Position numbers and translations under genes: made by a program. Positions 4,450 through 15,321 of a stretch of 22,531 nt of DNA are shown here, piece after piece (the stretch's first letter is position 1; every line of letters begins with the position of its first letter). This stretch comes from a virus, in IMG/VR virus record IMGVR_UViG_3300042882_000135, positions 1 to 22,531 of that record; one strand, 5' to 3'. Under the pieces are notes generated by a model. That model ran no database searches, was not told the DNA's origin, and worked only from the letters and a program-made list of their open reading frames with translations.

Positions 4450-4701
4450 TTAGTCGTTCATGTGCTGGGCAATCTCGCGCTCAATACGGGATTCATCCTT
4501 GCTGGTCAACTTCTTTTCCAGCCACGGGGCGGGGCGTCCACGGCGGTCACACACCACCCAGTCGCTCTCGCTATAGCCGTGGTAGTCCCAGTCGCTGGCC
4601 GCGTTCTGGCTGTAGGAGCCAGCGATGCTGATGTACTCAACGACACCAATGATGCAAGGGATGCCTGCTACGCGGGTTTCAATTTCTGCTAGGTATGACA
4701 T
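4450..4701 (-). CDS. Unrecognised small phage protein
   Basis: An 83-residue acidic protein starting MSYLAEIETRVAGIPC. It contains a glycine-containing beta-like segment (CIIGVVEYISIAGSYS), an aromatic, acidic middle (SDWDYHGYSESDWVVCD) and a charged helical C-terminus (KDESRIEREIAQHM). ATG 4701 follows a short AGGAAATTAA ribosome site, with the AAAGCGAATC leader about 20 bases further upstream, so both signals may act. The order beta-turn then charged helix is seen in many small phage accessory proteins, but I do not recognise a named family. Confidence 0.75.
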   Translation of the reverse strand: MSYLAEIETRVAGIPCIIGVVEYISIAGSYSQNAASDWDYHGYSESDWVVCDRRGRPAPWLEKKLTSKDESRIEREIAQHMND

Positions 4702-4756: not shown

Positions 4757-5146
4757 TTACGCCTTGGCCCAGTACCCGTAGACCATACGCTCAGTGCTGT
4801 CCCATGCGTCGTGAGCAACGCCGTCAATCACCGCCACAAAGTGACGGGCCTGCTTGGCAATGACGACGCCTGTAAGGTCACTACAACGCGCCTTACGGCC
4901 TGCAAACTGTGGAGCCTTCATCCACACAAAACCGTAACGCTTTAACACCTCGGTGTATACATCTTTCATCACGCCGTTACGAGCAGACTTTGCGCGACCG
5001 TTGTCAGCGTTGGCTTGGGCCAACTCCTTGTACACCGCGCTGTAGTCAAGGCCCAGTGCGATTGCCATTGCACGAGCGCCACAGTCACCTGCTGTACCTT
5101 TGAAGCCAGCGGCCTTGCGGCCTCCATCGTTGTATTGATATTTCAT
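4757..5146 (-). CDS. Papain/C39-like small phage protein
   Basis: 129 residues starting MKYQYNDGGRKAAGFKG. The GDCGARAMAIA block around C22 and the later RHFVAVIDGVAHDAWD block (H102, D108, H112, D116) have the order and spacing of the Cys and His boxes of papain/C39-fold enzymes. A family of short phage and plasmid proteins with this N-terminus and GDC motif exists, but to my knowledge its substrate is unknown. No signal peptide, so it would act in the cytoplasm. The open frame extends 24 residues further upstream, but ATG 5146 directly abuts GGAAAGCGAA and follows a promoter at 5188-5214. Protease, deubiquitinase-like or transglutaminase-like activity is possible; catalysis is inferred. Confidence 0.75.
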   Translation of the reverse strand: MKYQYNDGGRKAAGFKGTAGDCGARAMAIALGLDYSAVYKELAQANADNGRAKSARNGVMKDVYTEVLKRYGFVWMKAPQFAGRKARCSDLTGVVIAKQARHFVAVIDGVAHDAWDSTERMVYGYWAKA

Positions 5147-5187: not shown

Positions 5188-5214
5188 AGTATAACACCAT
5201 ATTAAACAATGCAA
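5188..5214 (-). promoter_or_regulatory. Sigma-70-type promoter, extended -10
   Basis: Minus strand: TTGCAT (5209-5214), then TATACT (5188-5193) preceded by TGT, giving an extended -10. The spacer is 15 bases, short, but the extended -10 compensates. It lies just after the sigma-region-4 gene and would drive the 4757-5146 gene and those beyond. The spacer holds the shared 16-nt element. Confidence 0.6.
5193..5208. promoter_or_regulatory. Shared 16-nt promoter element, copy 1
   Basis: Plus-strand AACACCATATTAAACA. It differs at one position from the copy at 13040 and lies between -35 and -10 of its promoter, the place where an operator would block RNA polymerase. Confidence 0.55.
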
Positions 5215-5224
5215 GCACTTTCCT

Positions 5225-5749
5225 TTAAGTATTTTCCCTAAGTTCCAAAAGTTTTTTGATTAACTGATTTTCCATGTAATTTGTGTGCCGCTCCACCATT
5301 TTTTTTTCATGGTAGGCTTCACGCCACTTATTCAATGCCTCTTGTTCCTGTTCTTCTAAACGCTTTTTGCGTGGGCAAAATTCCATTAAAGTACGCAGAA
5401 CATCGGAACGGGTGGGGTGCTTTAGTTTGCGAATAGCCTTGGCTTCAATCTGGCGTATACGCTCCCTTGTCACGCCAAACACCATGCCAGTTTCATCAAG
5501 GGTGTAATCAGCCCAAAAACGACACCAAAGCAGTTTTTGTTCTCGGTGGGTTAGTGTCTCCAAGGCCGTAGGAAATAAACGCTTCAAATCAATTCTGGTG
5601 TCCTTGTCTTCGTATGGGGTCAACATCCACCAAGGTAAGCGGTCAAATACCTCTTGCTCTGGCTCATCATTGCGACTACGCCAAAGTCGGCCTACCTCTG
5701 GGTCGTAGTCATGCAGTCGGCCTTCAAGACTTATTCGGCGGCGTCCCAT
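5225..5749 (-). CDS. Stand-alone sigma-70 region 4 protein
   Basis: 174 residues. From 66 to 119 it follows sigma-70 region 4 closely: [45 protein letters not shown], then TRSDVLRT. Helix-turn-helix residues 83-110 keep the RpoD -35 recognition helix (TRERIRQIE). Regions 1.2 to 3 are absent: the first 60 residues are unrelated, and the C-terminus (125-170) is a charged, probably coiled-coil tail ([15 protein letters not shown]). Such a protein cannot melt promoters alone. It may replace or compete with host sigma region 4, bind -35 boxes, or contact the RNA polymerase flap. ATG 5749 overlaps the upstream gene by 26 bases. It sits next to the 5188-5214 promoter, which may be one of its targets. 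Confidence 0.85.
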
Positions 5750-6302
5750 CTAGCTTATCCTCCATTTTCAGGTGGGCCAACAACTCCTTCACCGCAAACA
5801 CGTCAGTGGGGTACACGTTGATGTATCGCTCAATCTCGTTCAGGACGTAGCCATAGCCCGCGTCGAAGCCTTTGATGTAGTCAGACATCACCGCCTCGCT
5901 TTGAGGGCGTCTACAGCCCTCGTGGGCCTTTGTGAAGGCATCCATCTTGCCCACGATGGCATCAATGGGCGCAGGCATCTTGATGGCCTCGCTGAAGCCG
6001 CAGTGCTGGCACTCCATGCGCTGGGTGTCGCTGTTGTGAATGATGTGGTCGGTGTTCATACTTTTATTCCTTTTCTTTTTTTCTAATGATGCTCGAATGC
6101 CAATTGAAATTTTTTCACGGTGCTGGTCACTCAAGCCAAAAGTACCCTTTAACCCAAATTTAGAAAACTGTTTTGCAGAAAATTCTGGGGCCGTTGAAAC
6201 CAATTGCTGAAACATTTTTTTTCTATCTTCGGAAGGCAATTGTCGAATAGTTCTGCCAACACTCAACTCGTCCATGAACTCTTCTATTTGTTGTTTGTTC
6301 AT
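5724..6302 (-). CDS. Putative zinc-binding protein, possible two-gene fusion
   Basis: 192 residues in one uninterrupted frame, but in two unlike parts. Residues 1-80 are basic and helical, with [18 protein letters not shown] (56-73) faintly like the NUMOD-type DNA-binding repeat of homing nucleases. From Met82 a second part carries CQHC (98-101) and HEGC (127-130), a C2HC zinc site, then helices ([31 protein letters not shown]). An AGGAA site lies 11 bases before the Met82 codon (6059), so a 111-residue product may also be made. Many phages encode a short protein like this second part alone. The start at 6302 overlaps the previous stop as ATGA, which favours the long form. Function unknown. 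Confidence 0.75.
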
Positions 6303-6484
6303 GCTGTCTCCCTTGCTTCCTTGCGACCGCGCTCAACAAAATATCGAGCGTCAGTCTGGTCTGTGATGTGTTCTTCCTGAAGCATCTTGCGGATGCCTTC
6401 TGCTACGGCCCGCGCCCTGTCGGCGCTGTTGGCCTTCTCGTAACGATAGCCTGCGTTGATGTAGTCTGCTTGTGCGTGTTTCAT
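6299..6484 (-). CDS. Unrecognised small helical protein
   Basis: 61 residues, MKHAQADYINAGYRYE to [10 protein letters not shown]. Highly charged and helical, with no Cys and no membrane segment. ATG 6484 is chosen over an upstream in-frame start because GGAGG lies 6 bases before it and because it overlaps the previous stop as ATGA. Its own stop overlaps the next start the same way. Family not recognised. Confidence 0.7.
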   Translation of the reverse strand: MKHAQADYINAGYRYEKANSADRARAVAEGIRKMLQEEHITDQTDARYFVERGRKEARETA

Positions 6485-6891
6485 GCGGCCTCCTCGACCT
6501 GTGGCAAACGCAATTCCCAGCATCGACCGTACCCCACTATTTTTCGTGAGGCCACGTTGCGAATATCGTCAATGAGACTCTTTGCGCCAGAACTTTTCCA
6601 ACCGTCGTACTCGCAAGCCTGATAGTCAAAACAATCGCACCCAGAAATAATGTCGATAGCCTCAATATGCGACACCGATACGGTCTTAGGCAAGAAGTCC
6701 TCTGGCTTGTCACCGTAACGGGCAAACATACTGGCGTTGTTGGCGTCCCGCAAAACCGCGCCCACGCGCCAGTAGTCTTCGGACTGGGTCAGGTCAAATC
6801 GAACATCATCCACCCGCACGATGGGGTTGTGCTTACGCGCCCATGACAAAAGAATGTTGATGTGGTCATCAGAAACGTGAAATGCTGACAT
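6481..6891 (-). CDS. Conserved phage/plasmid-type protein, unknown function
   Basis: 136 residues beginning MSAFHVSDDHINILLSWA. This opening, followed by an adjustable middle and a late tyrosine/serine/aspartate region (CDCFDYQACEYDGW), resembles small proteins I recall from phages and plasmids of many bacteria, with no role assigned. Three Cys within ten residues (GCDCFDYQAC, around 88-97) might bind metal. ATG 6891 is chosen over a longer frame because the extra 38 residues are out of character (Arg/His-rich shadow sequence) and the shorter start lies right behind the upstream gene's stop with GGGGG ahead. Cytoplasmic, function unknown. Confidence 0.75.
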   Translation of the reverse strand: MSAFHVSDDHINILLSWARKHNPIVRVDDVRFDLTQSEDYWRVGAVLRDANNASMFARYGDKPEDFLPKTVSVSHIEAIDIISGCDCFDYQACEYDGWKSSGAKSLIDDIRNVASRKIVGYGRCWELRLPQVEEAA

Positions 6892-6893
6892 GA

Positions 6894-7079
6894 TTAAGCC
6901 CCCTGTGGTGCGTTGATGTAACCCTGCTCGATGAGCGAGGCGGCGGTGCGACCGAAGAAGCCTTGCAGTTGCCATGCAAGCCCCGTGTCGACCAAGTGTT
7001 GCCACGCCTCCAATACCTGCTCTTCACTCTCGGCCTCAATGAAGCCCTCTGCTAAACCTGTTGCTGTGTAGTTGTCCAT
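6894..7079 (-). CDS. Small acidic conserved protein, unknown function
   Basis: 61 residues, starting MDNYTATGLAEGFIEAESEE. Middle and end (AWQHLVDTGLAWQLQGFFG, RTAASLIEQGYI) form two amphipathic helices. The wording is familiar from aquatic phage genomes but has no function known to me. ATG 7079 follows the leader CGAAAGCGAAT at 7084-7094; the gene stands just after a G/C hairpin and two bases before the next start. Confidence 0.72.
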   Translation of the reverse strand: MDNYTATGLAEGFIEAESEEQVLEAWQHLVDTGLAWQLQGFFGRTAASLIEQGYINAPQGA

Positions 7080-7083
7080 GATG

Positions 7084-7094
7084 ATTCGCTTTCG
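7084..7094 (-). promoter_or_regulatory. GAAAGCGAA leader motif
   Basis: Minus-strand CGAAAGCGAAT, four bases before ATG 7079, preceded by ATAACCGAAA. No other ribosome site is visible. Confidence 0.6.
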
Positions 7095-7104
7095 TTTCGG
7101 TTAT

Positions 7105-7120
7105 GGGGGCCAAAGCCCCC
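7105..7120 (-). other. Intercistronic GGGGGC hairpin with UUUG loop
   Basis: Minus-strand GGGGGC-TTTG-GCCCCC, six bases after the stop of the 7127-7441 gene and ten bases before the next leader motif. No U-run. Third copy of the hairpin-then-leader arrangement. Confidence 0.7.
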
Positions 7121-7126
7121 TGTTGG

Positions 7127-7441
7127 TTAATCTGCGCGGGAACCCGTGTAGCAGGAAATGCCATGCTTGGTCAGCACTTGAGCAAACGCATGAGCGCCAG
7201 CTTCTTTGATGTCCATCGACTGGGTGAAGTTGCCTGCTGGGTTCCAGATAGACCAGCCCTTTTGCCAATGCTTGCGGCCCACGTTGTTTTTCTTGCACCA
7301 AGTCACAAACGGTGTGCGTGCGCTTGGCAGGTCGACCCAAGCAAAACCGCAGTACGCTGGTTCGCCATACTTGGCTTGGAACTCTGCTTCAGCCGCCTTA
7401 GCGGCGGAGATTGCTTCTTCGTAGATTGATGTGAAATCCAT
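7127..7441 (-). CDS. Unrecognised small phage protein
   Basis: 104 residues. An alanine-rich helix (EEAISAAKAAEAEFQAKYG) is followed by an aromatic segment (YCGFAWVDL, TWCKKNNVG, KHWQKGWSIWNPAG) and an alanine-rich end (GAHAFAQVLTKHGIS). Three Cys are spread out (31, 49, 97), without a zinc pair. ATG 7441 has GGAGG 6 bases upstream. Short gap (12 bases) from the upstream gene, so one transcript is likely. Family not recognised by name. Confidence 0.75.
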   Translation of the reverse strand: MDFTSIYEEAISAAKAAEAEFQAKYGEPAYCGFAWVDLPSARTPFVTWCKKNNVGRKHWQKGWSIWNPAGNFTQSMDIKEAGAHAFAQVLTKHGISCYTGSRAD

Positions 7442-7453
7442 ATCCGCCTCCGA

Positions 7454-7747
7454 TTAACGTGAAGTTACTTTGACAGAGAACACCGCAGTGGTCTTTGTGT
7501 GACGGGCAATCTGCTCGGCAGTCGCGCCCAACTCAGCCAACAAGGCTTTGTTGTCGACCACTGAGCGGTTGCTCTCGATGTATGTTGCTTTGAAGAGGTT
7601 GCCCTCAACTACCTTGTCGCCACCAGCAGAAGCGGCGTCTTTGATGCCGTCCTTGATGGAGTCAGCTTGCTTGGTTAACTCAGCAATCTGAGCCAAGAGG
7701 TTACCCAGTACGTCGACTTGGGTGAGTTGGATGTCGTTTGATTTCAT
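7454..7747 (-). CDS. Unrecognised 97-residue conserved-type protein
   Basis: Starts MKSNDIQLTQVDVLGN. A first helix (LLAQIAELTKQADSIKDG) is followed by a Gly turn (ASAGGDK), a beta-like stretch FKATYIESNRSVVD, a second helix and a closing strand (TAVFSVKVTSR). The NRS-VD-K and final VTSR features resemble a recurring small phage family with no function known to me. It is the first gene after the promoter at 7802-7829 and carries the leader motif directly before its ATG, so it is probably the most strongly expressed member of this block. Confidence 0.78.
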   Translation of the reverse strand: MKSNDIQLTQVDVLGNLLAQIAELTKQADSIKDGIKDAASAGGDKVVEGNLFKATYIESNRSVVDNKALLAELGATAEQIARHTKTTAVFSVKVTSR

Positions 7748-7748
7748 A

Positions 7749-7759
7749 ATTCGCTTTCG
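7749..7759 (-). promoter_or_regulatory. GAAAGCGAA leader motif
   Basis: Minus-strand CGAAAGCGAAT one base before ATG 7747, preceded by GTAACCAAA. It is the first start codon downstream of the 7802 promoter. Confidence 0.62.
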
Positions 7760-7801
7760 TTTGGTTACCTGCCTTGCAACTATTGCTTGGTCAGTGATGC
7801 T

Positions 7802-7829
7802 AGTTTAACCCCAAATTAAACGCTGTCAA
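7802..7829 (-). promoter_or_regulatory. Strong sigma-70 promoter
   Basis: Minus strand: consensus TTGACA (7824-7829), 16-base spacer, TAAACT (7802-7807), in an AT-rich intergenic region with TTTTTAAAAA just upstream as a possible UP element. The best -35 in the window. It serves the 7454-7747 gene and the block to its left. The 16-nt element fills the spacer. Confidence 0.75.
7807..7822. promoter_or_regulatory. Shared 16-nt promoter element, copy 2
   Basis: Plus-strand AACCCCAAATTAAACG, 14 of 16 identical to the copy at 13040-13055. It occupies the spacer of the 7802-7829 promoter, so a bound protein would repress. Confidence 0.55.
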
Positions 7830-7861
7830 CAACTTTTTAAAAATATTTTCTAAGGAAAACC

Positions 7862-8161
7862 CTAATGTTGTGCCGTAGCAACACCCAGCAATTCCAGCGT
7901 ATCTTTGAGAAGGTCGGCCTCGTCGTACCCGTAGTGCTTCTCAAACCCCTTGGTTCCAAGGCCATGCAGGCCCGTAGCGCCGCGATGATGCTCTGGGCAT
8001 AGCGGTATCACGCTCATGTGGCTAGAACGCCCCCAGCCCCCCGCCAAACGCCTTGGATGGTGCAACTCAGCGGGCGTACCCTCGTACCCCATCCGCCTGC
8101 ATACAGCACAGCCCAATTCAGCCACGGCGCTCATGTGCTTTTTTTCTTTCAGCGTGGTCAT
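7862..8161 (-). CDS. Ref/HNH-type nuclease-like protein
   Basis: 99 residues from ATG 8161. Zinc and HNH-like motifs: CAVC (18-21), LHHPRRLAGGWGR (33-45), IPLCPEHHRG (52-61), GLHGLGTKGFEKHYG. This order matches the phage P1 Ref (recombination enhancement function) / DUF968-type HNH family, a RecA-dependent DNA nuclease in P1; activity here is inferred. The gene closes a long operon with RusA and helicase genes, fitting a DNA-processing role. ATG 8161 overlaps the previous stop (TAATG). A second ATG at 8134 (MSAVAELG) could be the true start, since the ten codons before it resemble a tiny leader frame at 8297-8329. Confidence 0.82.
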   Translation of the reverse strand: MTTLKEKKHMSAVAELGCAVCRRMGYEGTPAELHHPRRLAGGWGRSSHMSVIPLCPEHHRGATGLHGLGTKGFEKHYGYDEADLLKDTLELLGVATAQH

Positions 8162-8304
8162 TAACTGTCCCCATATAGTTCTGCACACCTAAACAATGCG
8201 TAGTAAACAAGACGGCAATCACCACGCTGTTCAAATGTTTCAATTGCTAGGTTTTTCCACACAACCCGTTCAATCCATCTTTCTAATTGGTAATGTTCAA
8301 TCAT
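8161..8304 (-). CDS. Unrecognised 47-residue protein
   Basis: Starts MIEHYQLERWIERVVW at ATG 8304 and ends AELYGDS; the stop TAA shares a base with the next ATG. Aromatic and basic, probably helical, with two Cys (DC, RC). No clear ribosome site, but an upstream ten-codon frame ends across this start, so re-initiation is plausible. The coupling on both sides supports it as a real gene. Confidence 0.55.
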   Translation of the reverse strand: MIEHYQLERWIERVVWKNLAIETFEQRGDCRLVYYALFRCAELYGDS

Positions 8305-8325
8305 GTGTTTTTTCTGCAAGTGTGG

Positions 8326-8526
8326 TCATTGGCGCGGGGCAATCTTGGACTGCATGAATTTGATGAACTCTTCGTCGGTCTCATCAACGGGTTGAGAGTT
8401 CTCAAATAAAGTTCCGTCCTCAGCCATCCTATGAATGTCAGCCAGCATTTCCGCCATTTCTTCTGGTGTGCCTTCAAAGCCATCAAAGCAACCCTCAGCA
8501 AAAATAATTTTAGGTTTCTCAGTCAT
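8326..8526 (-). CDS. Small acidic phage protein, unknown function
   Basis: 66 residues, strongly acidic. MTEKPKIIFAEGCFDGFEG is a beta-turn opening, followed by two acidic helices (TPEEMAEMLADIHRMAED and TDEEFIKFMQSK). The order and the AEGCFDGFEGT motif look like a recurring small phage family with no assigned role. ATG 8526 overlaps the zinc-ribbon gene's stop. Net charge and size would suit a DNA-mimic or protein-binding inhibitor, but that is speculation. Confidence 0.75.
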   Translation of the reverse strand: MTEKPKIIFAEGCFDGFEGTPEEMAEMLADIHRMAEDGTLFENSQPVDETDEEFIKFMQSKIAPRQ

Positions 8527-8669
8527 TGCTTACCCTTTGTAAAACCAGCCCTGTTTTTTAAATCGTGACACGTTTGGCATCGCCACTGCGGAGCGCCCCT
8601 ACTGGTTCTCACTTGCTTGTCTGCTGGTCGCAGGCGGCATACCTGACAGGTCTTTGGTTTGTCAGTCAC
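8523..8669 (-). CDS. Small zinc-ribbon protein
   Basis: 48 residues with two CxxC pairs, CQVC (8-11) and CQTCH (31-35), about 20 residues apart, a minimal zinc ribbon. Basic overall, so nucleic-acid binding is likely. The start is GTG 8669, overlapping the stop of the previous gene; no ATG is available. The first codons (TDKPK) resemble those of the next gene (TEKPK). It overlaps the next ATG by four bases. Confidence 0.65.
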   Translation of the reverse strand: MTDKPKTCQVCRLRPADKQVRTSRGAPQWRCQTCHDLKNRAGFTKGKQ

Positions 8670-9021
8670 GCTTCATGCCCCTTACAAATATTGCGAACGA
8701 GGCAACAGTGTCTCCACCGTTACGCATCTTTTCAAACTCAAGCGCCACCTCTTCTAGCACGCCGTTGCGCAACTCGTTATCCAACTCCGCGTCAGTCATC
8801 GGCTTGTGATAAACCCCGATAGTCCTGTAACCCTGCTCTCGCAGGACACGGTCAAACTCATCATCTTCATCATTCTTCATGGTCATCCTCCACATTGAAT
8901 AAATCATCAAAACAAATCCAGCGACTGCCAAATAATGCGTGTGGGTTATCCACCCATCGGTCAAAACCATTACCCAGCTTAGACCGTGGAGGACGCCCCA
9001 TTGAAAAGAATTAAAACGCAT
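8662..9021 (-). CDS. Membrane protein with acidic cytoplasmic domain
   Basis: 119 residues from ATG 9021, overlapping the lipoprotein gene by 11 bases. Residues 7-20 and 28-45 are hydrophobic (GVLHGLSWVMVL and YLAVAGFVLMIYSMW), giving two membrane helices with a short loop. From about residue 50 the protein is soluble, acidic and helical (NDEDDEFDRVLREQGY, ELDNELRNGVLEEVALEF). GGAGG lies 6 bases before an in-frame ATG (MKNDEDDE), so the soluble domain could also be made alone, or the frame may be two former genes joined. Next to a lipoprotein, a membrane or lysis role is possible; no known family recognised. Confidence 0.68.
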   Translation of the reverse strand: MRFNSFQWGVLHGLSWVMVLTDGWITHTHYLAVAGFVLMIYSMWRMTMKNDEDDEFDRVLREQGYRTIGVYHKPMTDAELDNELRNGVLEEVALEFEKMRNGGDTVASFAIFVRGMKRD

Positions 9022-9271
9022 ATCGGTTGGAGCAAAGGACGTCGATAACGGTCTCTGTGCTGTAACCGTTAACGTAACGCTTGCCATATATCACGCGGGC
9101 GCGTAGGCCCGCCTCTTGGCAGTCCTTGATTGCGTCAATCTGCTCACCGCGACTCAAAGGTTGAATGTTCCTGTCCATGATGAGGTTCTGCACCGTGACG
9201 TGCGGTTCCTTGTTTGATGAACACCCAACCAATGCGCTCACTGCACACACTGCAATAAAAATCTTTTTCAT
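9011..9271 (-). CDS. Small phage lipoprotein
   Basis: 86 residues with a classic lipoprotein signal: MKKIFIAVCAVSALVGC, lipobox LVGC, lipidated Cys17, followed by SSN, so outer-membrane sorting is likely. The mature part is 69 residues with two further Cys (KDCQEAG and VLCSN) that could form one disulfide. Candidates include an outer-membrane spanin, superinfection exclusion or an adhesin-blocking factor. The spanin idea is weakened because no typical inner-membrane coiled-coil partner precedes it; the following two-helix membrane gene overlaps it instead. Starts at ATG 9271, overlapping the previous stop. Confidence 0.82.
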   Translation of the reverse strand: MKKIFIAVCAVSALVGCSSNKEPHVTVQNLIMDRNIQPLSRGEQIDAIKDCQEAGLRARVIYGKRYVNGYSTETVIDVLCSNRYAF

Positions 9272-9600
9272 ACTGTTGCCCTTCCCTCTGCTCTGTTATT
9301 TGCTTGTTCTGTTCGCCATATTTCGACACGCAAGGTCGCCGCCGTGATGTCCCATTTGAGGCGCTCCTCAATTAGCACAGCTTCTTTCAATCCATCAAGC
9401 AACTGCACATACTCAGGGTGCGCGTATGCTTCGCGCTCTTGCGCTCCAATGGCGGTCTCCATGCTTCGCTTCATCAAAATTGATTTCAATGACTTGCGAT
9501 ATTCCTCTATGTATGTGCGCTCTGCCTTGGCCTTAGCAAAGAGCGCGGCGTGCTTGAGAATGTAATCCACCGCCTTGTGCGGGTCTCTTTCTTCACTCAT
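9268..9600 (-). CDS. Helical conserved-type phage protein
   Basis: 110 residues, no Cys, almost all helical: EERDPHKAVDYILKHAAL, FAKAKAERTYIEEYRKSLK, IGAQEREAYAHPEYVQLL, GLKEAVLIEERLKWDIT. The AYAHPEY and EIWRTEQANNR words recur in small phage proteins near replication genes. It may be a scaffold, a structural helper or a DNA-binding helper; no function is known to me. ATG 9600 is overlapped by the preceding microprotein frame. Confidence 0.75.
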   Translation of the reverse strand: MSEERDPHKAVDYILKHAALFAKAKAERTYIEEYRKSLKSILMKRSMETAIGAQEREAYAHPEYVQLLDGLKEAVLIEERLKWDITAATLRVEIWRTEQANNRAEGRATV

Positions 9601-9730
9601 AAAAAATCCTTCCCTTTTTTGCGCGATTGCGCTTGATTACCATACCAACAAAAATCACAACGCTTATCCAAAACATAAATCCAGACAGCGACATGAAGGC
9701 CCAAAAAAACTCTCCAAATGTGTTAAACAT
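9593..9730 (-). CDS. Membrane microprotein
   Basis: 45 residues with AAAGGAGAG about 3 bases before ATG 9730. One long membrane helix spans about residues 9-32 (FWAFMSLSGFMFWISVVIF), followed by a basic tail (KRNRAKKGR), indicating N-out/C-in topology. The LSGFMFW segment is shared with the next upstream microprotein, so the two may be an old tandem duplicate. Stop overlaps the next gene by eight bases. Confidence 0.65.
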   Translation of the reverse strand: MFNTFGEFFWAFMSLSGFMFWISVVIFVGMVIKRNRAKKGRIFYE

Positions 9731-9850
9731 TTACTCTCCTTTTATAGGCTGACACAGCCAGTAATACCACGTTAAAAAAATAACAAACATCCAAAACAAA
9801 ACGCCAGACAACAAAAAAAACCAAGTCATCACATTTAAAAATGCATCCAT
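9731..9850 (-). CDS. Membrane microprotein
   Basis: 39 residues; residues 4-34 are almost wholly hydrophobic (WFFLLSGVLFWMFVIFLTW), then a short end. LLSGVLFW matches LSGFMFW of the next gene. ATG 9850 has GGGG seven bases upstream, and it abuts the following ATG (TAAATG). A holin-like or membrane-perturbing protein is possible; evidence is composition only. Confidence 0.6.
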   Translation of the reverse strand: MDAFLNVMTWFFLLSGVLFWMFVIFLTWYYWLCQPIKGE

Positions 9851-10023
9851 CAATCACCCCTCTTGTTCACGAAGTCTTCGCGTACATCGACCATTGCCTG
9901 CGCCTGCTCGTAAGCCTCGTAGGCAATATCTATTTTTGACTTTAATGCCTTGGATGGCTTTTGCAAAAGACCAATCAATGCAAGCATTGCAAATATGTCA
10001 ATCAAGTCTGGTTCAGTTTTCAT
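9850..10023 (-). CDS. Unrecognised 57-residue helical protein
   Basis: MKTEPDLIDIFAMLALIGLL at the start, then a charged helix (KPSKALKSKIDIAYEAY, EQAQAMVDVREDF). The first helix is amphipathic with a hydrophobic run of nine, perhaps membrane-associated. Starts at ATG 10023 and overlaps both neighbours (ATGA upstream, TGATG downstream). Not recognised. Confidence 0.6.
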   Translation of the reverse strand: MKTEPDLIDIFAMLALIGLLQKPSKALKSKIDIAYEAYEQAQAMVDVREDFVNKRGD

Positions 10024-10142
10024 GTGCAACTCTTTTCTTTTTGTTTGGTGTACTGCGTGACGTAATCGTGCAAGTCGTCAATCAATGGCGGGTCTCCAGC
10101 AAACAAAAAGTATGCTACGACCAACAACAAAAACCATTTCAT
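10020..10142 (-). CDS. Membrane microprotein
   Basis: 40 residues, MKWFLLLVVAYFLFAG then a soluble acidic to basic tail (DPPLIDDLHDYVTQYTKQK). The N-terminus is either a membrane anchor or a signal peptide with no clear cleavage site. ATG 10142 overlaps the rusA stop. Support comes from coupling and composition. Confidence 0.58.
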   Translation of the reverse strand: MKWFLLLVVAYFLFAGDPPLIDDLHDYVTQYTKQKEKSCT

Positions 10143-10486
10143 AAAACCCCCTCTATGGTTACTTTGACCATACCGCCAATCTCGTCTGCCCAATACACGC
10201 GCAGGTCTTCAATAAGAGCATCGTCCTGCATCACGCCAGCGTGAGTCATGGAGTCAAGCAACGCCTTCAGCAGGTTATCCAAATCGCGACGACGACGGTC
10301 TGGGCGGAAGGCTTGTATCTCAACCTTCACCGCGTAGTCGATGTGCTTGGCGGCACGTTGAATCAACACTTGGTCAGCAACAGCCTTACGGTACTCGCGC
10401 CCCTTTGCGCTGATGACGGTGCGACCGTTGACGTTGCGCCAATAGGTGTTGACCGTTGGGGGCCAAGGCAGTGTTATCTCAATCAT
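10139..10486 (-). CDS. rusA: RusA-type Holliday junction resolvase
   Basis: 115 residues from ATG 10486. It shows the RusA signature: LPWPPTVNTYWR near the start, RRRRDLDNLLKALLDS in the middle, and GVMQDDALIEDLRV. The two aspartates of DLDN and the first-loop Asp of QDDA match the metal-binding catalytic triad of RusA, and the Lys of LLKA is also kept. It cuts four-way junctions as a dimer, resolving recombination or replication intermediates before packaging. An ATG two codons upstream is less likely, since AGGAGA would touch it; the chosen ATG has seven bases of spacing and forms an ATGA overlap with the upstream gene. Confidence 0.93.
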   Translation of the reverse strand: MIEITLPWPPTVNTYWRNVNGRTVISAKGREYRKAVADQVLIQRAAKHIDYAVKVEIQAFRPDRRRRDLDNLLKALLDSMTHAGVMQDDALIEDLRVYWADEIGGMVKVTIEGVL

Positions 10487-10725
10487 TTCCATTCTCCTGT
10501 GTTACCTCTGTTACCTTTTGTCCACTGGTCTCTAACATCAGCTTCAAGGCGGGACTTGGGATGAAGTTCGTTCCACCCCTTGTGGCGCTTCCCACGCTCG
10601 TCAACGTAACCATTGAACCAGCGGTATGCGCTATCGCGATTTTGAATACGCATCTTGATAATTTCTCGAACGAGACAACGGTGACGATGCTCATCCTCTC
10701 CTTCGCCCTCCTGCCCATAATTCAA
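10483..10725 (-). CDS. Unrecognised basic phage protein
   Basis: 80 residues with a TTG start at 10725, chosen because it overlaps the helicase stop and follows GGGGGAAGG. Key segments: HRHRCLVREIIKMRIQNRD, AYRWFNGYVDERGKRH, GWNELHPKSRLEADV. Basic and helical, with the look of a small DNA-associated phage protein found near helicase and rusA. A second frame over the same bases (10479-10718) is less protein-like. No named family known to me. Confidence 0.75.
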   Translation of the reverse strand: MNYGQEGEGEDEHRHRCLVREIIKMRIQNRDSAYRWFNGYVDERGKRHKGWNELHPKSRLEADVRDQWTKGNRGNTGEWK

Positions 10726-11723
10726 AACCTTCCCCCGTTGTCAAAAGACATTGGAATTGAGTCATGGTTTTCAACAAACTGCTGACTGTCTTTGAGATAC
10801 CAAAGCGAGTACCAGTCCTCAGCTTCGCCGTTACGTTGCTTCTCGCACATGAGGTAAGCATCTGGAATCATTGGGTCGACCGCGCCGTTCTGTGCGTCGT
10901 GTTCTTTTTTCTTGTTACGCCACACCATAAGGACGTTGTCCACTTGGTCGCTGATAGAACCTGAGCCTTTAATGTCGTTTTTGTTGGGCTTGATTTCCTC
11001 GCTCTGCAATTTGCGGATGTGGTGAATCAAATGAACGTGGACGTTGTGGTCACGGGCCAACGATGTCAACTCATCAACAAATGCTTTTTGAGCGTTGTAG
11101 TCGTCCTCGCCAGATACGCACTTCATCAGCGAGTCAATAAAGATGTGTTGCACACCCAACTCAACGGCGCTGTAACGAGATACCGCAATGACTTGCTGTG
11201 CAGTCACCGTGCCTTGCTGGTCATACAACCACAGGTTTGCATGAGCAAAAATTCTCATGCGCAAAATCAATGCAGATAGGTATCTGGCTTTGTCTGTATA
11301 GCGCGGAAAGTCAATGTTCTCACCAGCAAACTGGCGGAGCATACGAAACAGCGTGCGCTTAGGTTTCATCTCAAACGAAGCAATCATCACCTTCTGCTTT
11401 TGCTTTATGAGGCCCATCGCAATCTGGCCCGTCACCATCGACTTACCGCCGCCATTGCCGCCAGCGTACAAAGTCACCTCACCTGCGCGAAACTGAAAAC
11501 CTGCATGGGTCTTCGTCCAAGGCATGGTCTGAGACACATCCGCTACTGGGTTGGCAATCTCAGCTTCAATGTCATCCAAAAACTCGCCTGCGTTCTTAAC
11601 CTTTTGGGCCACGTCATTGGCCTTGAGGTATTTCTCAAAGTCAACCTCGTCTGGTTTGACAATACGAATACGACGAGCATCGTCAAGTTCTTGCGCTCTT
11701 TTGTGTACGTCAGACATTTGCAT
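10722..11723 (-). CDS. DnaB-like replicative helicase core
   Basis: 333 residues. Walker A GGNGGGKS (88-95), catalytic Glu in ASFEM (115-119), Walker B HIFIDSLMK (193-201), a HLIHHIRK motif (231-238) and the motif GSGSISDQVDNVLMVWR (253-269) define the RecA-type helicase domain of the DnaB/T7 gp4/Twinkle family, which unwinds DNA as a hexamer. The DnaB N-terminal domain and any primase fusion are absent; the first 70 residues are a charged helical segment. It follows the CHC2 zinc-finger gene with a 14-base overlap and the DUF1376 gene, together forming the replication core. ATG 11723 or the ATG two codons later would both fit a GGTGAA site. Confidence 0.93.
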   Translation of the reverse strand: MQMSDVHKRAQELDDARRIRIVKPDEVDFEKYLKANDVAQKVKNAGEFLDDIEAEIANPVADVSQTMPWTKTHAGFQFRAGEVTLYAGGNGGGKSMVTGQIAMGLIKQKQKVMIASFEMKPKRTLFRMLRQFAGENIDFPRYTDKARYLSALILRMRIFAHANLWLYDQQGTVTAQQVIAVSRYSAVELGVQHIFIDSLMKCVSGEDDYNAQKAFVDELTSLARDHNVHVHLIHHIRKLQSEEIKPNKNDIKGSGSISDQVDNVLMVWRNKKKEHDAQNGAVDPMIPDAYLMCEKQRNGEAEDWYSLWYLKDSQQFVENHDSIPMSFDNGGRF

Positions 11724-12144
11724 ATTTCACCGCCTCTTCAATTCGCTGTTGTGATAATTTCATTCGCTCTCTATCGCCTTCGCTCAACTTCTTACCTTGA
11801 CTCATGTCGTAAGCGCAGATGGCAACCACCAATGCTTCAAACGAAATGATTCGCATCAGGTCGCTGGCGTAAAACGCGGGCTTTAAACTCTTCTTGCCTT
11901 CAATTGGGTATTCGCGGCGCTTATCGTCTGGCGGAAACAAGTCAGTCATGTCCATACCCAGCGCCTGCACCACGTTCAACGTCTCGCAACCTGCAAAACA
12001 GTGAATCAACACTCGACCGTCTTCAGTCTCACGAATAGCAAGCGATGGCCCCTTGTCATTGTGCGCAGGACAGCAGGCAGTCCAAGAACCGTTGCGACCC
12101 TTGACCTTGGTCAGCATACCCAGCATACGTTCCACTGGTGTCAT
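11710..12144 (-). CDS. Primase-type CHC2 zinc-finger protein lacking TOPRIM
   Basis: 144 residues from ATG 12144 (GGAGG upstream, ATGA overlap). CPAH (25-28) and HCFAGC (48-53) supply the Cys-His-Cys-Cys zinc site of DnaG/gp4-type primases, with SWTACCPAHNDKGPSL, RVLIHCFAGC and VVQALGM in the family order. The ribbon probably selects the priming trinucleotide. After about residue 80 only a helical region is left (SDLMRIISFEALVVAICAY, MKLSQQRIEEAVKY); the TOPRIM catalytic domain is missing. So it is a zinc domain only: either a partner of the host DnaG, or a truncated primase. A family of such short phage zinc-finger proteins next to DnaB-like helicases exists. Confidence 0.85.
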   Translation of the reverse strand: MTPVERMLGMLTKVKGRNGSWTACCPAHNDKGPSLAIRETEDGRVLIHCFAGCETLNVVQALGMDMTDLFPPDDKRREYPIEGKKSLKPAFYASDLMRIISFEALVVAICAYDMSQGKKLSEGDRERMKLSQQRIEEAVKYANV

Positions 12145-12779
12145 ATGACCCTCCGACCCACGGCTGGCGTTCCTGCGTCGTCTTCCCAACGACGTTGGTT
12201 GATGTACGTCAGAGGTGCAGGTTCAAAGCCGCCAGTCCACTGCTCGGTGACCTTCAGTTTGTTGACCTGAGCGATGATGGTCTCAGCCACAGAGTCCAGC
12301 CCACCCTTCGCCCACTTCTTCTGGCACTCTGCCTTTGCGACCTTGCGTTTGGACGCAGGCCAACATTGCCAGAACTCGTCGAATTTCGACGATGTATTTA
12401 TATTCTTATTCTGTATCTGTATCTTCTTAGGGTTATGGTTGGCTTTCGATTCGGTTACCGATTCGGTTTTTGACGGCCTGCCGCCTCGCTTTCCGAGTTG
12501 TCGATTATTTTCAACTTGATGTTGATACTTCGTAACTTCGACATGGCAACGATTGTTGAAATACCCTGTTTCGGTACGTTCAAAAAATTCGTTCAAAACC
12601 GATTCGGTTATGTCCAAATCTAAACGTATCTTTCTCGCAACCGATTCGGTATCGAGTGGGATTTCCTTCTCGCTCATGTAGTAAAGGTCAAGCAGGCGTC
12701 GGTACGCCAAGTCCTCAGCATCACTGAGATGAACCGTGTGTGTGAGGTAATCACCGATGTGGAATTTGTACCATATCAT
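12141..12779 (-). CDS. DUF1376-type phage replication protein
   Basis: 212 residues. The N-terminus matches DUF1376 (YdaU-like): WYKFHIGDYLTHTVHL, DAEDLAYRRLLDLYYM, IPLDTESVARKIRLD, then EFFERTETGYFNN, about 1-85. A charged, low-complexity linker (85-128) leads to a C-terminal segment FDEFWQCWPASKRKVAKAE, GGFEPAPLTYINQRRWED, which occurs in phage replication initiator/helicase-loader proteins. Probably brings helicase to the origin or binds origin DNA. Codons in the linker are A/T-rich compared with neighbours. ATG 12779 overlaps the stop of the Cro-like gene. The replication role is inferred from family context and location. Confidence 0.85.
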   Translation of the reverse strand: MIWYKFHIGDYLTHTVHLSDAEDLAYRRLLDLYYMSEKEIPLDTESVARKIRLDLDITESVLNEFFERTETGYFNNRCHVEVTKYQHQVENNRQLGKRGGRPSKTESVTESKANHNPKKIQIQNKNINTSSKFDEFWQCWPASKRKVAKAECQKKWAKGGLDSVAETIIAQVNKLKVTEQWTGGFEPAPLTYINQRRWEDDAGTPAVGRRVI

Positions 12780-12988
12780 TTCGCTGTCTTTCCAAAAATG
12801 TCGGGCCGAAGTTCAGCCCTCTTCACTTTCCTACCTGTGTGCAACTCAATGTCGCGGGCTAGTTCTGGGCTAGGTAGTCGTCGCCCAGTCACAATCAAAG
12901 AGAACCATGTCTTGCTGATGCCCAGCTTGCGTGCTAAAGCAATCATCGTCCCCCTTGGTTTGTCCTGAAAATATTCTTGAAGTGTCAT
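12776..12988 (-). CDS. Cro/YdaS-like DNA-binding regulator
   Basis: 70 residues. ARKLGISKTWFSLIVTGRR (19-37) is a helix-turn-helix with a recognition helix of the Cro/YdaS type, followed by PSPELARDIELHTG and KVKRAELRPDIF. It is the first gene of the leftward replication operon and diverges from the plus-strand operon, so it most likely controls one or both directions by binding the palindrome or the 16-nt element in 13032-13055. No larger CI-like partner is visible. ATG 12988 has AAAGGGATACG upstream (weak site). Confidence 0.88.
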   Translation of the reverse strand: MTLQEYFQDKPRGTMIALARKLGISKTWFSLIVTGRRLPSPELARDIELHTGRKVKRAELRPDIFGKTAK

Positions 12989-13012
12989 CGTATCCCTTTC
13001 TTGGTTAAGCGG

Positions 13013-13041
13013 ATGTTACACCAAAAAAAAATGTTGTGCAA
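13013..13041 (-). promoter_or_regulatory. Leftward promoter for the regulator/replication operon
   Basis: Minus strand: TTGCAC (13036-13041), 17-base spacer containing nine T, TAACAT (13013-13018). The -35 lies inside the palindrome and touches the 16-nt element, so one bound protein could control it. Confidence 0.6.
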
Positions 13042-13043
13042 CA
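13032..13043. promoter_or_regulatory. Candidate operator palindrome
   Basis: TGTTG-TG-CAACA: five-base arms with a two-base centre, located between the divergent promoters and overlapping the leftward -35. The size suits a Cro-like dimer. Confidence 0.4.
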
Positions 13044-13064
13044 CCAAATTAAACATGATACACT
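13034..13064 (+). promoter_or_regulatory. Rightward promoter, extended -10
   Basis: TACACT (13059-13064) preceded by TG and one base gives an extended -10; the best -35 is TTGTGC (13034-13039) with a 19-base spacer, or TGCAAC with 16. It would drive the plus-strand operon 13093-15321. The 16-nt element lies between the boxes. Confidence 0.5.
13040..13055. promoter_or_regulatory. Shared 16-nt promoter element, copy 3
   Basis: Plus-strand AACACCAAATTAAACA, located between the boxes of the rightward promoter and just upstream of the leftward -35. Copies at 5193 and 7807 differ at one and two positions. Confidence 0.55.
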
Positions 13065-13078
13065 TGTGCGTGTTTAAC

Positions 13079-13092: not shown

Positions 13093-13275
13093 ATGCACAG
13101 CGAAGACGAAATGCACCAACTCATGTTGGAAAGAATGCAAATGCTTGAGGAGGCTTTGGAAAAGGCCAAGGCAGGCGTTGCTACCGAGGACGACTGGAAC
13201 ATCATCCGCAGTGAATGCGGTCTGTCCAAGCGTCCAATTGTGACCTTAGAAACTGTATCAATTAGGAGCGAATGA
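13093..13275 (+). CDS. Unrecognised small helical protein, first gene of rightward operon
   Basis: 60 residues, MHSEDEMHQLMLERMQMLEE first, then EALEKAKAGVATEDDWNII, RSECGLSKRP. Acidic N-terminal coiled-coil-like helix. It follows the rightward promoter and the GAAAGCGAA leader, and its stop overlaps the start of the SSB-like gene (AATGATG). Function unknown; the position suggests early expression with the recombination genes. Confidence 0.72.
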   Translation: MHSEDEMHQLMLERMQMLEEALEKAKAGVATEDDWNIIRSECGLSKRPIVTLETVSIRSE

Positions 13276-13931
13276 TGGCTTTAATAGCGAAAGAAAGTGG
13301 CGGCGGCGGTGGTGAATTTACCCCTGTCCCGCAAGGAATGCACCTTGCACGGTGCTACCGAGTCATTGACTTGGGAACTCAAGAATCAACTTACCTTGGA
13401 ACGGTCAAGAAATTGCCCAAAGTGATGTTGCAATTTGAGGTGCATGGCGAAGACGAGAACGGCGATTCTATCGTCACAGGCAAAGGCGAACCAATGTCAA
13501 TCAGCAAGAACTTTACGCTCTCGCTGGCGGAGATGGCTACCCTGCGCAAAGACCTGCAAACGTGGCGTGGACGCGAGTTCACCGCAGACGAGTTGCGTGG
13601 CTTTGAACTCAAGAACGTGCTAGGCGCGTGGGCGATGATTTCGGTCATCAAGGCTATGGGCAACAACGGCAAGGAGTACACCAACATTGCCGCCATCATG
13701 TCTGTGCCGCCAGCCATCAAAAAGGCTGGAATCCCGCAAGGCCACAACGAGTTGAAGTTGTTCTCTATCGACGAGCCTGACATGACGCTGTTTGACAGCT
13801 TTAGCAACGGCCTGAAGGAGAAAATCCAAAAGTCGCCAGAGTGGCAGGCACGAGGCGGAACAAGCGCTCCAGCGCCCTCTAAAGCCCCTTCCAGCGGCTT
13901 TGACGACATGGATGATGACATCCCCTTCTGA
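13275..13931 (+). CDS. Phage SSB-like protein with acidic tail
   Basis: 218 residues from ATG 13275 (218 or 219, as a double ATG occurs; the second has six bases from GGAG). A glycine-rich start (KESGGGGGEFTPVPQG) is followed by a beta-rich body (CYRVIDLGTQ, KVMLQFEVHGED, SISKNFTLSL, AWAMISVIKAMGN), consistent with an OB-like fold. The C-terminus is a flexible Ala/Pro/Ser linker, then FDDMDDDIPF, the acidic tip by which SSB proteins recruit partners. It probably coats single-stranded DNA during replication/recombination and may bind the nucleases encoded next. The SSB identity rests on tail and fold impression, not a clear family motif. Confidence 0.75.
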   Translation: MALIAKESGGGGGEFTPVPQGMHLARCYRVIDLGTQESTYLGTVKKLPKVMLQFEVHGEDENGDSIVTGKGEPMSISKNFTLSLAEMATLRKDLQTWRGREFTADELRGFELKNVLGAWAMISVIKAMGNNGKEYTNIAAIMSVPPAIKKAGIPQGHNELKLFSIDEPDMTLFDSFSNGLKEKIQKSPEWQARGGTSAPAPSKAPSSGFDDMDDDIPF

Positions 13932-13933
13932 CC

Positions 13934-14311
13934 ATGAGGCTCATGCGTAACCAAAAAGCGGCGCACATTGATTTCTTTCAGTTCAAAGGACTGATTGAGA
14001 CCAATCCCAAGGCGACGCCCTGCGACATTGACATGGTGTTTGAACGTAAGTGCAAATTCTTTGTTGGTGAATGGAAGCGGGAAGGTGAAAGCATCAGCCA
14101 AGGGCAGGGGTTGCTACTGCGCAATCTGGCAAGGCAACCCCAGTTCACCGTAGTCATCATCCAAGGCAACACGGACGGTGAAACGGTGGTCGAGAAGTTT
14201 GAGCAATTATGTTCAGACGGTCGTTTCAGGGTGCGTGGCAAGTCTTTTGATGACCTCAAGAAGTTTGTCACGCGCTGGTACAACTGGGCAGACGCCCAAG
14301 AATTTCAATAG
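13934..14311 (+). CDS. PD-(D/E)XK-type nuclease, small
   Basis: 125 residues. The nuclease core is CDIDMVFERK (D33), GEWKREGESISQGQG (E46-W-K48), then a hydrophobic strand FTVVIIQG. Glu22 in LIETNPKA may be the helix acid. D33, E46 and K48 fit the PD-(D/E)XK order on a short frame, as in phage endonucleases with a Holliday or flap-type role. ATG 13934 lies two bases after the SSB-like stop with no obvious ribosome site, so coupling is likely. It precedes a larger nuclease of the same broad superfamily. Which substrate it cuts is not known from sequence. Confidence 0.7.
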   Translation: MRLMRNQKAAHIDFFQFKGLIETNPKATPCDIDMVFERKCKFFVGEWKREGESISQGQGLLLRNLARQPQFTVVIIQGNTDGETVVEKFEQLCSDGRFRVRGKSFDDLKKFVTRWYNWADAQEFQ

Positions 14312-14318
14312 GAAAGAT

Positions 14319-15089
14319 ATGACCATAACCACACCAGCAGTTCGCGCCAGCGAATCAAATCATTGGTACACCCGCGATGGCGTGCCACAGTACACCGTGG
14401 AGGCCAAGAAGGGCGGACAGCGTGCTACCACCCTGCGTGATGCAAGAACCATGAACTTGGTTCCAAGTGTCACTACAATATTGAGCGTTGCGGCAAAACC
14501 CGCGCTGACAGCTTGGCTCCAGCAACAGGTGTTGCTTGCCGCGCTTACCCTTCCCCGCCGCCCAGACGAAACTGAAAAGGAATACATTGACCGAATCATT
14601 AACGATTCCAAAGAACAGGGTCGGTCTGCGGCGGATGCGGGAACTGACATCCATGCATCCATTCAAGGCTTTTATGAAGATAGACCAACAGGAAAACACC
14701 AAGAGAGTGTTGACGCCTGCACCCGTGCAATCAAAGAACACTTCGGAGACCAAATCTGGATTTCCGAGCGCTCATTCGCACATGAACTCGGTTTTGGCGG
14801 TAAGTGCGATTTATTTTCTGGGGACGGAGAAGGCATCGTCGCTGACATCAAAACCAAAGAGTTTTCTGACCCCGCAAAGGTCGATGGCTACGACGAGCAT
14901 CTCATGCAACTCTCAGCTTATCGAGTTGGTCTAGGCATCCCCAAGGCACGCTGTGCCAACGTCTTTGTCTCTCGTAGCGTCCCTGACCTTGTCGTGGTGC
15001 GCGAGTGGAGCGCTGAAGACCTTGACCGTGGCTGGGAGATGTTCGTGAACCTTCTACAATTTTGGCAAATCAAAAACTCTCACAAATAA
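14319..15089 (+). CDS. RecB/Cas4-type PD-(D/E)XK exonuclease
   Basis: 256 residues from ATG 14319 (AGGAAAG six bases upstream). An N-terminal segment LVPSVTTILSVAAKPALTAW is followed by GTDIHASIQGFYE (H112), ERSFAHELGFGGKCDLF (D164), IVADIKTKEF (D176-I-K178) and HLMQLSAYRVGLG (197-206). This is the order of RecB/Cas4-like nucleases: His, Asp, Asp/Glu-x-Lys and the final QxxxY. No four-Cys iron-sulfur site is seen, so it is closer to phage exonucleases than to Cas4. It would resect ends for recombination and concatemer formation with the SSB-like protein. No annealing protein of the Bet/Erf type is seen nearby. Confidence 0.85.
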   Translation: MTITTPAVRASESNHWYTRDGVPQYTVEAKKGGQRATTLRDARTMNLVPSVTTILSVAAKPALTAWLQQQVLLAALTLPRRPDETEKEYIDRIINDSKEQGRSAADAGTDIHASIQGFYEDRPTGKHQESVDACTRAIKEHFGDQIWISERSFAHELGFGGKCDLFSGDGEGIVADIKTKEFSDPAKVDGYDEHLMQLSAYRVGLGIPKARCANVFVSRSVPDLVVVREWSAEDLDRGWEMFVNLLQFWQIKNSHK

Positions 15090-15099
15090 GGATTGAAAA

Positions 15100-15321
15100 A
15101 TGTTAAGCGAAGAAACCATCAAACAAATCTTCTTCCAAAGCGACCGACCCCGCAAAGACCCACTCATTGCGGACGAGGTGGACATCATGCAGTTTGCTCA
15201 CAACATTGAGCAATATGTGGCGGTGGAATACGCAAGAAAAGAACACGCTCGTTGCGTTGAGATTGTTAAAGAAATGAATCGCGCAGTCGGCGAGGCTTTG
15301 GACAACCAAAGGCCAGCATAA
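15100..15321 (+). CDS. Conserved small phage protein, unknown function
   Basis: 73 residues, MLSEETIKQIFFQSDRPRKD first, then PLIADEVDIMQFAHNIEQYV, ARKEHARCVEIVKEMNRAV. Mostly helical, one Cys. The wording (SDRPRKDPLIADEVDIM) is familiar from small genes of aquatic and betaproteobacterial phages. AAGGA eight bases before ATG 15100. It ends the rightward operon, directly before the converging terminator. Function unknown. Confidence 0.8.
   Translation: MLSEETIKQIFFQSDRPRKDPLIADEVDIMQFAHNIEQYVAVEYARKEHARCVEIVKEMNRAVGEALDNQRPA

Follow-up and report, generated by a model that had tools for sequence, protein, structure and literature searches.

A 19-bp palindrome at early promoters of a phage group as the probable operator of its YdaS-type Cro-like protein

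Which protein reads a short sequence that recurs at three separate promoters of one virus contig? The contig, hereafter the window, is the whole IMG/VR virus record IMGVR_UViG_3300042882_000135 (22,531 bp) and represents, as a phage genome, a 22.5-kb fragment. A preliminary description of this DNA reported a 16-nt element in three intergenic regions, each over a predicted promoter, considered the coincidence unlikely by chance, and proposed that one regulator co-controls several early blocks: a Cro-like protein, a protein with a sigma factor region 4, or a host factor. The comparative analysis reported here indicates that the element belongs to a 19-bp palindrome, GTTTAA-N7-TTNNAC. This palindrome probably serves as operator for the Cro-like protein, of the YdaS type, that the phage itself encodes and by which a dispersed regulon would be shut off early.

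The three copies of the 16-nt element were found exactly where they had been described, at 5193-5208, 7807-7822 and 13040-13055, and no further copy with up to three mismatches exists elsewhere in the window. In shuffled versions of the window the 16-nt pattern occurs 0.93 times on average and reaches three or more copies in 9 of 100 shuffles; since the pattern was written from its own three copies, this comparison is weak support by itself. As to its extent, the element had to be redrawn: the 16 nt are one half plus the centre of the 19-bp palindrome, and in window coordinates the true element begins 4 nt to the left of the start described earlier. Read leftward, the three copies are GTTTAATATGGTGTTATAC, GTTTAATTTGGGGTTAAAC and GTTTAATTTGGTGTTGCAC, with the common palindromic frame GTNNAA-N7-TTNNAC. 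The motif GTTTAA-N7-TTNNAC gives three leftward readings and one rightward reading in the window, the perfect palindrome at 7803 being read on both strands, against a mean of 0.07 and a maximum of 2 in 300 dinucleotide shuffles, none of which holds three; the looser GTNNAA-N7-TTNNAC occurs at three places, a number reached by 4 of 300 shuffles. Moreover, all three sites are intergenic, which has a naive probability of about 8e-5 given that about 4.4% of the window is intergenic in a hand-chosen gene set. The repeat is real and above chance expectation. A search for inverted and direct repeats (minimum length 8) in the three regions, of 141-161 bp, returned no repeats; the palindrome, whose arms are 6 bp long and partly degenerate, became visible only in relatives. 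Since the 19-bp frame was derived after the sites had been seen, the relatives are also its real test.

The promoter positions described earlier over all three copies agree with our re-reading of the sequence, the promoters themselves being predictions. P1 (5188-5214, minus strand) is a predicted sigma-70-like promoter with a -35 box TTGCAT at 5209-5214, a 15-nt spacer and a -10 box TATACT at 5188-5193; its operator (5189-5207, minus strand) reads GTTTAA-TATGGTG-TTATAC leftward and lies with its right half on the -10 box. The same holds for P2 (7802-7829, minus strand; TTGACA at 7824-7829, 16-nt spacer, TAAACT at 7802-7807), also predicted as sigma-70-like, the operator of which (7803-7821, minus strand) is the perfect palindrome GTTTAA-TTTGGGG-TTAAAC. 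The third site, O2 (13036-13054, minus strand; GTTTAA-TTTGGTG-TTGCAC), belongs to the divergent promoters of ydaS. Its right half is the -35 box of PL (13013-13041, minus strand; TTGCAC at 13036-13041, 17 nt, TAACAT at 13013-13018), the predicted promoter of ydaS and the replication genes. O2 also sits just upstream of the extended -10 sequence TGATACACT of PR (13056-13064, plus strand), predicted from the sequence for the recombination/nuclease block. Close relatives keep both PL and PR, and contexts like those of P1 and P2 are found in relatives as well. A generic sigma-70 scan of the window returned 7 promoters, against 10.5 expected from shuffles, and flagged only P2 of these four. Of the three tandem operators that a lambda-like set at ydaS would comprise, O2 is clear. 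The candidate half-site O1 (GTTTAAC, 13072-13078, plus strand), in the PR leader, stands at a nearly fixed distance from O2, and the candidate O3 (GTGTAA-CATCCGC-TTAACC, 13003-13021, minus strand), over the PL -10 box, has the same 19-bp geometry in degenerate form. The half-sites of both are conserved, but O1 coincides in part with the start-codon leader and O3 with the -10 box of PL, which leaves both tentative.

Relatives were obtained from viral contigs, where 80 of 81 loci were kept from searches with the 70-aa Cro-like protein and five came from searches with the sigma-region-4 protein. Spacing was counted in the window and 79 loci, that is, 85 loci minus six with a distant YdaS (L077, L078, L080-L083). 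In this set GTTTAA-Nn-TTNNAC gives 212 readings at n=7, with perfect palindromes counted twice, against 1, 0, 3 and 0 at n=5, 6, 8 and 9, respectively; the regions upstream of ydaS of close relatives align closely. The element also accompanies the promoters. When promoters were picked by TTGN, a spacer, TANxxT and CACTG, with no requirement for the element and with the loci fetched through it (L089-L204) left out, an exact GTTTAA was present at -14 to -9 from the -10 box in 16 of 17 promoter clusters, the exception showing five mismatches. An earlier version of this test on all loci, element-fetched ones included, gave 39 of 44 clusters with at most one mismatch to GTTTAA and five with more. 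Relatives thus do not keep the promoters while losing the element. Neither is the element as frequent inside genes as at promoters: 34 of 165 distinct sites have at least 10 of their 19 bases inside a mechanical open reading frame (ORF) of at least 100 aa, compared with 81.7% of all bases, the 34 being taken from the count alone and such ORFs over-extending upstream.

The position of the palindrome relative to the -10 box was surveyed in 102 clusters other than ydaS, which had been found by the N7 pattern in all loci collected by then. Counted from the first G, the best-scoring -10 box starts at +14 in 42 clusters, at +3 in 16 (probably artefacts of TTTAAT), at +8 in 14 and elsewhere in 10, with none assigned in 20; a few clusters look like coincidences in coding sequence. 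The +14 class carries, for example, TAAACT on the right arm and the +8 class, for example, TACAAT inside the centre, so the arms are not merely promoter boxes. The genes downstream of 340 readings in clades I and II (see below) fall into 45 families by single linkage; as perfect palindromes read both ways, this number is an upper bound.

In three promoters (L050 at 15164, L086 at 4163 and L087 at 2499) the -10 box is inside the operator centre and the -35 box TTGACA lies within a GGGGG...CCCC hairpin, as if a promoter and a terminator-like stem had been overlaid.

The sites occur together with YdaS. Among 24 records searched whole, sites were present in all 18 whose YdaS shows at least 69% identity and in none of the six with at most 54% identity; the 18 site-bearing records, which had been fetched through YdaS, hold 84 readings versus 5 when the pattern is reversed. 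Sites are also present in each of nine additional whole records (23 readings versus 4 for the reversed pattern). A scan that used only the operator DNA found at least 119 stretches, the best 80 of which were examined, and in 17 of these 80 ydaS lies within the stretch itself. When the whole records of 22 DNA-scan matches were searched, five of them previously known positives, YdaS was found in 10. By size, these were all nine records above 30 kb and one of 13 at or below 25.4 kb; with two already known contigs added, YdaS is present in 11 of 11 contigs above 30 kb among the DNA-scan matches listed.

The Cro-like protein itself, encoded by ydaS (12776-12988, minus strand), has 70 aa and matches Pfam YdaS_toxin (PF15943, 6.2e-10; 39.2 bits versus a cut-off of 30). 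By fold and sequence, its best solved match is the YdaS of CP-933P (8co2), with a TM (template modelling) score of 0.86 and 37% identity over 67 columns; in the predicted structure (mean predicted local distance difference test score, pLDDT, 89.8) helix 3 spans residues 26-34. The gene faces the plus-strand gene at 13093, forming a divergent early promoter region whose sequence upstream of ydaS is kept in close relatives, and the GTTTA half-site operator O2 overlaps the divergent promoters of ydaS itself. YdaS of prophage CP-933P footprints over divergent promoters in a region that holds 18-bp palindromes with the consensus GTTTAGTAA, and represses both flanking promoters (PMC8630535). As in the window, a related regulator (structures 8co2 and 8c7k), divergent promoters and palindromes with a GTTTA half-site start are found together. 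Likewise, GTTTATTAAACACTAAAC stands upstream of ydaS in the outgroup phage Evi, the YdaS of which is by eye similar to the CP-933P protein; the CP-933P and Evi palindromes thus share the GTTTA half-site with the window and have a centre one base shorter. The two systems differ in layout. In CP-933P the palindromes form an array in a lambda-like immunity region with the CI analogue PaaR2 and YdaT, whereas the group of the window has mostly single sites at dispersed early promoters, and the records searched yielded neither an integrase nor an S24 repressor (YdaT was not searched for). A YdaT-type site, TTGATT-N6-AATCAA (PMC9986795), was compared with the window operator and does not match it.

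The comparison was extended to more distant YdaS clades by two further scans. When all 5-mer dyads with spacings of 3-11 were counted in an unbiased census, TCTAA-N7-TTAGA ranked first in clade IIIa, with 58 contexts and at most one at other spacings. GTTTAA-type and TCTAA-type readings separate by clade: 187 and 0 in clade I (70 loci), 34 and 0 in clade II (35 loci), 0 and 152 in clade IIIa (48 loci), 0 and 0 in clade IIIb (18 loci), 7 and 0 in group IV (14 loci). The switch follows the predicted recognition helix. Loci whose protein has the helix type xKTW carry GTTTAA in 123 of 157 cases, a figure inflated by loci fetched through the operator pattern, and TCTAA in none, while xTWLG loci carry GTTTAA in 0 and TCTAA in 40 of 45; neither motif occurs in 32 loci with other helix residues (3 of 237 loci were dropped as too short, near-copies and element-fetched loci being included). 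Between xKTW and xTWLG proteins residue 26 changes from K to P, Q, L or T and residue 30 from S or A to G; as predicted helix 3 comprises residues 26-34, both residues lie within it. Whole records agree with this partition. MW202545, a phage record of 57 kb annotated as complete and circular, whose YdaS is 45% identical, holds four TCTAA-type and no GTTTAA-type sites; 12 kb of it alone showed no regulon, the four sites coming from the search of the whole record. Nine more records of clade IIIa (49-56 kb) were searched in full and each has one to four TCTAA-type sites; TCTAA-type sites were found in none of three clade I records searched whole.

Spacing, promoter clusters, co-occurrence and clade switch together strongly support the proposal that one regulator co-controls several early blocks. 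Among the three candidates named earlier, the Cro-like protein is favoured, because the site overlaps its own promoters, because CP-933P YdaS footprints over a comparable region, and because the operator switches with the recognition helix.

Several observations weigh against this assignment. The CP-933P authors state that the precise YdaS binding sequences remain to be determined (PMC8630535), and the 18-bp palindromes found there are one base shorter than the 19-bp site of the window with its 7-bp centre. At the ydaS site of L050, L064 and the more distant clade, the right half is weaker (GTTTAA- or ATTTAA-N7-NTACAA). In the clade I census hairpin-like dyads such as GGGGC-N4 and AACCG-N3 come out ahead of GTTTA-N9-TAAAC (third) and TTTAA-N7-TTAAA (fifth), each of these two having 27 contexts, and in clade II the GTTTA/TTTAA dyads are not among the top six. 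Furthermore, 34 of the 157 xKTW loci have no site in the examined stretch, 20 of them with the helix GVSKTWMSL; for ten of the 34, the short loci L207-L216, sites are present in the records they come from or in other stretches. Clade IIIb and L077/L078 have YdaS and neither motif. YdaS and operator both track phage ancestry, in a tree built on few columns and with many open forks; as the clade labels are clustered on this weakly resolved tree, the switch represents one or few events and not many independent ones. Finally, a search with HTH_3, a helix-turn-helix family, reported ydaS in only 5 of 21 records, so other divergent repressors of this kind could be missed.

From these data we infer that YdaS is the binder, that it acts as a dimer, and that it represses and does not activate. 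The predicted course of events begins at PL, where ydaS is the first gene of the leftward early transcript. With accumulation of the protein, a YdaS dimer would bind GTTTAA-N7-TTNNAC with one recognition helix per half-site, occupying O2, between PL and PR, as well as the operators that cover or adjoin the -10 boxes of P1, P2 and similar early promoters. Bound YdaS would then block RNA polymerase, dampening its own synthesis and switching off replication, recombination and accessory early genes together.

This arrangement resembles lambda Cro at OR, where a small helix-turn-helix protein is encoded first in an early operon and its operators lie over its own divergent promoters. The half-site is different here, operators are also present at distant promoters, and the O1 and O3 positions are tentative. 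The stoperators of Cluster A mycobacteriophages similarly combine one phage repressor with many sites per genome; by the title of PMC9283540, however, stoperators are asymmetric, whereas the sites found here are palindromic and located at promoters.

It is unlikely, though it deserves some weight, that YdaS binds these sites in another role than that of a Cro shutting off early genes, either as a lysogeny or immunity repressor or by activating some of the promoters. At PL the site, upstream of and over the -35 box, would be suitably placed for activation; a large number of dispersed operators is reminiscent of immunity systems; and a ParB-like gene stands beside ydaS in MW202545. Against this, the site position at P1, P2 and PR predicts blocking, and CP-933P YdaS represses (PMC8630535). 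Moreover, Phage_integrase was found in none of 20 relatives and in none of 12 of a second set apart from the outgroup Evi (1 of 13), and Resolvase in none of 22, the window itself not having been searched with either model. An S24 repressor was found in none of 21 records, which may be fragments, and HTH_3 detected one protein beyond ydaS in one of 21 records, the same search having missed ydaS itself in 16 of the 21. Within the limits set by fragmentary records and unknown families, finding no integrase, resolvase or S24 repressor and a single extra HTH_3 protein in these records means that a lambda-type switch is not supported.

A host factor was considered in the form of CtrA, the alphaproteobacterial regulator, which by binding TTAA-N7-TTAA would couple the early genes to the host cell cycle; this is very improbable. 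The inner core at P2 is an exact TTAA-N7-TTAA box, and the terminases nearest after MW202545 are those of Caulobacter phages (41% identity). CtrA boxes in promoters of phages of Alphaproteobacteria have been published, with the same core at phage promoters (PMC9437464). In the phages studied here, however, the outer GT and AC are needed, the inner positions vary, and the clade switch follows a phage protein. In fact, TTAA-N7-TTAA is enriched in clade I only inside GT...AC (26 distinct contexts), with 0 contexts for the box with one flank and 2 for the box with none, against 2-7 at other spacings, and GTTAA-N7-TTAAC occurs 0 times in that clade. The box is often broken by a right half of the form TTATAC, TTACAC or TTGCAC. 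Of the three window sites P2 alone has an exact one, and clade IIIa keeps the geometry yet breaks TTAA in both halves. To our knowledge, CtrA is confined to Alphaproteobacteria. The Betaproteobacteria-1 RNA (RF02932) was detected in two of six clade IIIa loci (L218 at 11893-12010 and L257 at 11635-11752) and in none of nine clade I or II loci, which gives a hint of the host group of clade IIIa. A prophage-based host scan of genome contigs gave, among the matches listed, one distant match, in Acidithiobacillus (45% identity).

If a promoter-leader cassette had simply been copied from one early gene to another and no protein were dedicated to binding it, this would account for the fact that P1, P2 and many other sites also have in common TCACTG and the leader sequence downstream. 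Such copying is a most improbable origin of the whole similarity: at ydaS the same palindrome is placed differently with respect to the promoters, the arms are both conserved around a variable centre and are common to at least two promoter architectures, and in clade IIIa the arms have changed with the spacing unaltered. A dedicated promoter class in which the phage sigma-region-4 protein reads the element can be practically set aside, since, despite its clear Sigma70_r4 domain and a gene (5225-5749) adjoining P1, a homologue was found in only 2 of 27 site-bearing records (single-sequence search, E ≤0.001; many records are fragments), the -35 and -10 boxes are of the host type, and the position of the element relative to the -10 box varies.

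The genes that YdaS would control in the window include, downstream of P1, a phrog_3754 gene (4757-5146, minus strand) and, downstream of P2, a phrog_6244 gene (7454-7747, minus strand) with weak similarity to a RecE-like family. Downstream of ydaS follows the replication block (10722-12779, minus strand), with DUF1376/primosomal-like (12141-12779), primase zinc-finger (11710-12123) and DnaB-like (10722-11723) genes. The block downstream of PR (13093-15321, plus strand) comprises phrog_862 (13272-13931) and a PD-(D/E)XK nuclease/exonuclease (14319-15089). Elsewhere, the window encodes a RecA-dependent nuclease (7862-8188; PF16786, 7.3e-10) directly upstream of P2, a RusA resolvase (10139-10492) and a protein strongly matching the YuA phage Gp49 family (4450-4701; PF20788, 3.1e-24). 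A leader, GAAAGCGAA, stands 0-6 nt before ATG six times in the window (13081 on the plus strand; 3802, 4346, 5155, 7093 and 7758 on the minus strand) and 157 times in 80 loci, where the reversed control gave 0. The leader differs from a classic Shine-Dalgarno sequence.

Two further features were observed in clade IIIa. At least 7 of its 48 loci have a structured-RNA-like insert between the ydaS promoter and ydaS, in which AAAGCGGATGCT ... GACGNAGCGAGTA is conserved within a closing stem GGGG/CCCC or GGCC/GGCC (L218 7896-8000, L226 3992-4100, L239 7895-8000, L240 7904-8000, L253 5126-5231, L257 7907-8000 and L261 7896-8000); an Rfam search with the L239 copy gave no match up to E 5. The palindrome ACTA[AG]TCNGA[CT]TAGT occurs in 17 of the 48 loci, mostly about 720 nt after the start of ydaS (for example L223 8724, L224 8716, L242 8714 and L257 8725). 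These are possibly parS-like sites, the ParB-like gene of MW202545 being at that place.

The results may also suggest, more tentatively, a Cro without CI: a 70-aa protein could be the sole repressor of a dispersed early regulon, and clades could have re-lettered their operators from GTTTAA to TCTAA around the same 7-bp centre along with helix residues 26 and 30, giving mutually blind control groups, comparable to immunity groups, in phages without recognised lysogeny genes. What began as a repeat spotted by hand has become a regulon whose operator code can be tested, in phages represented here almost exclusively by metagenome contigs. Helix and operator change in pairs over many promoters, a natural experiment in the joint change of a DNA-binding protein and the sites it reads, which predicts orthogonal repressor-operator pairs. 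For the biology of these phages, it suggests what Cro may do when no CI opposes it.

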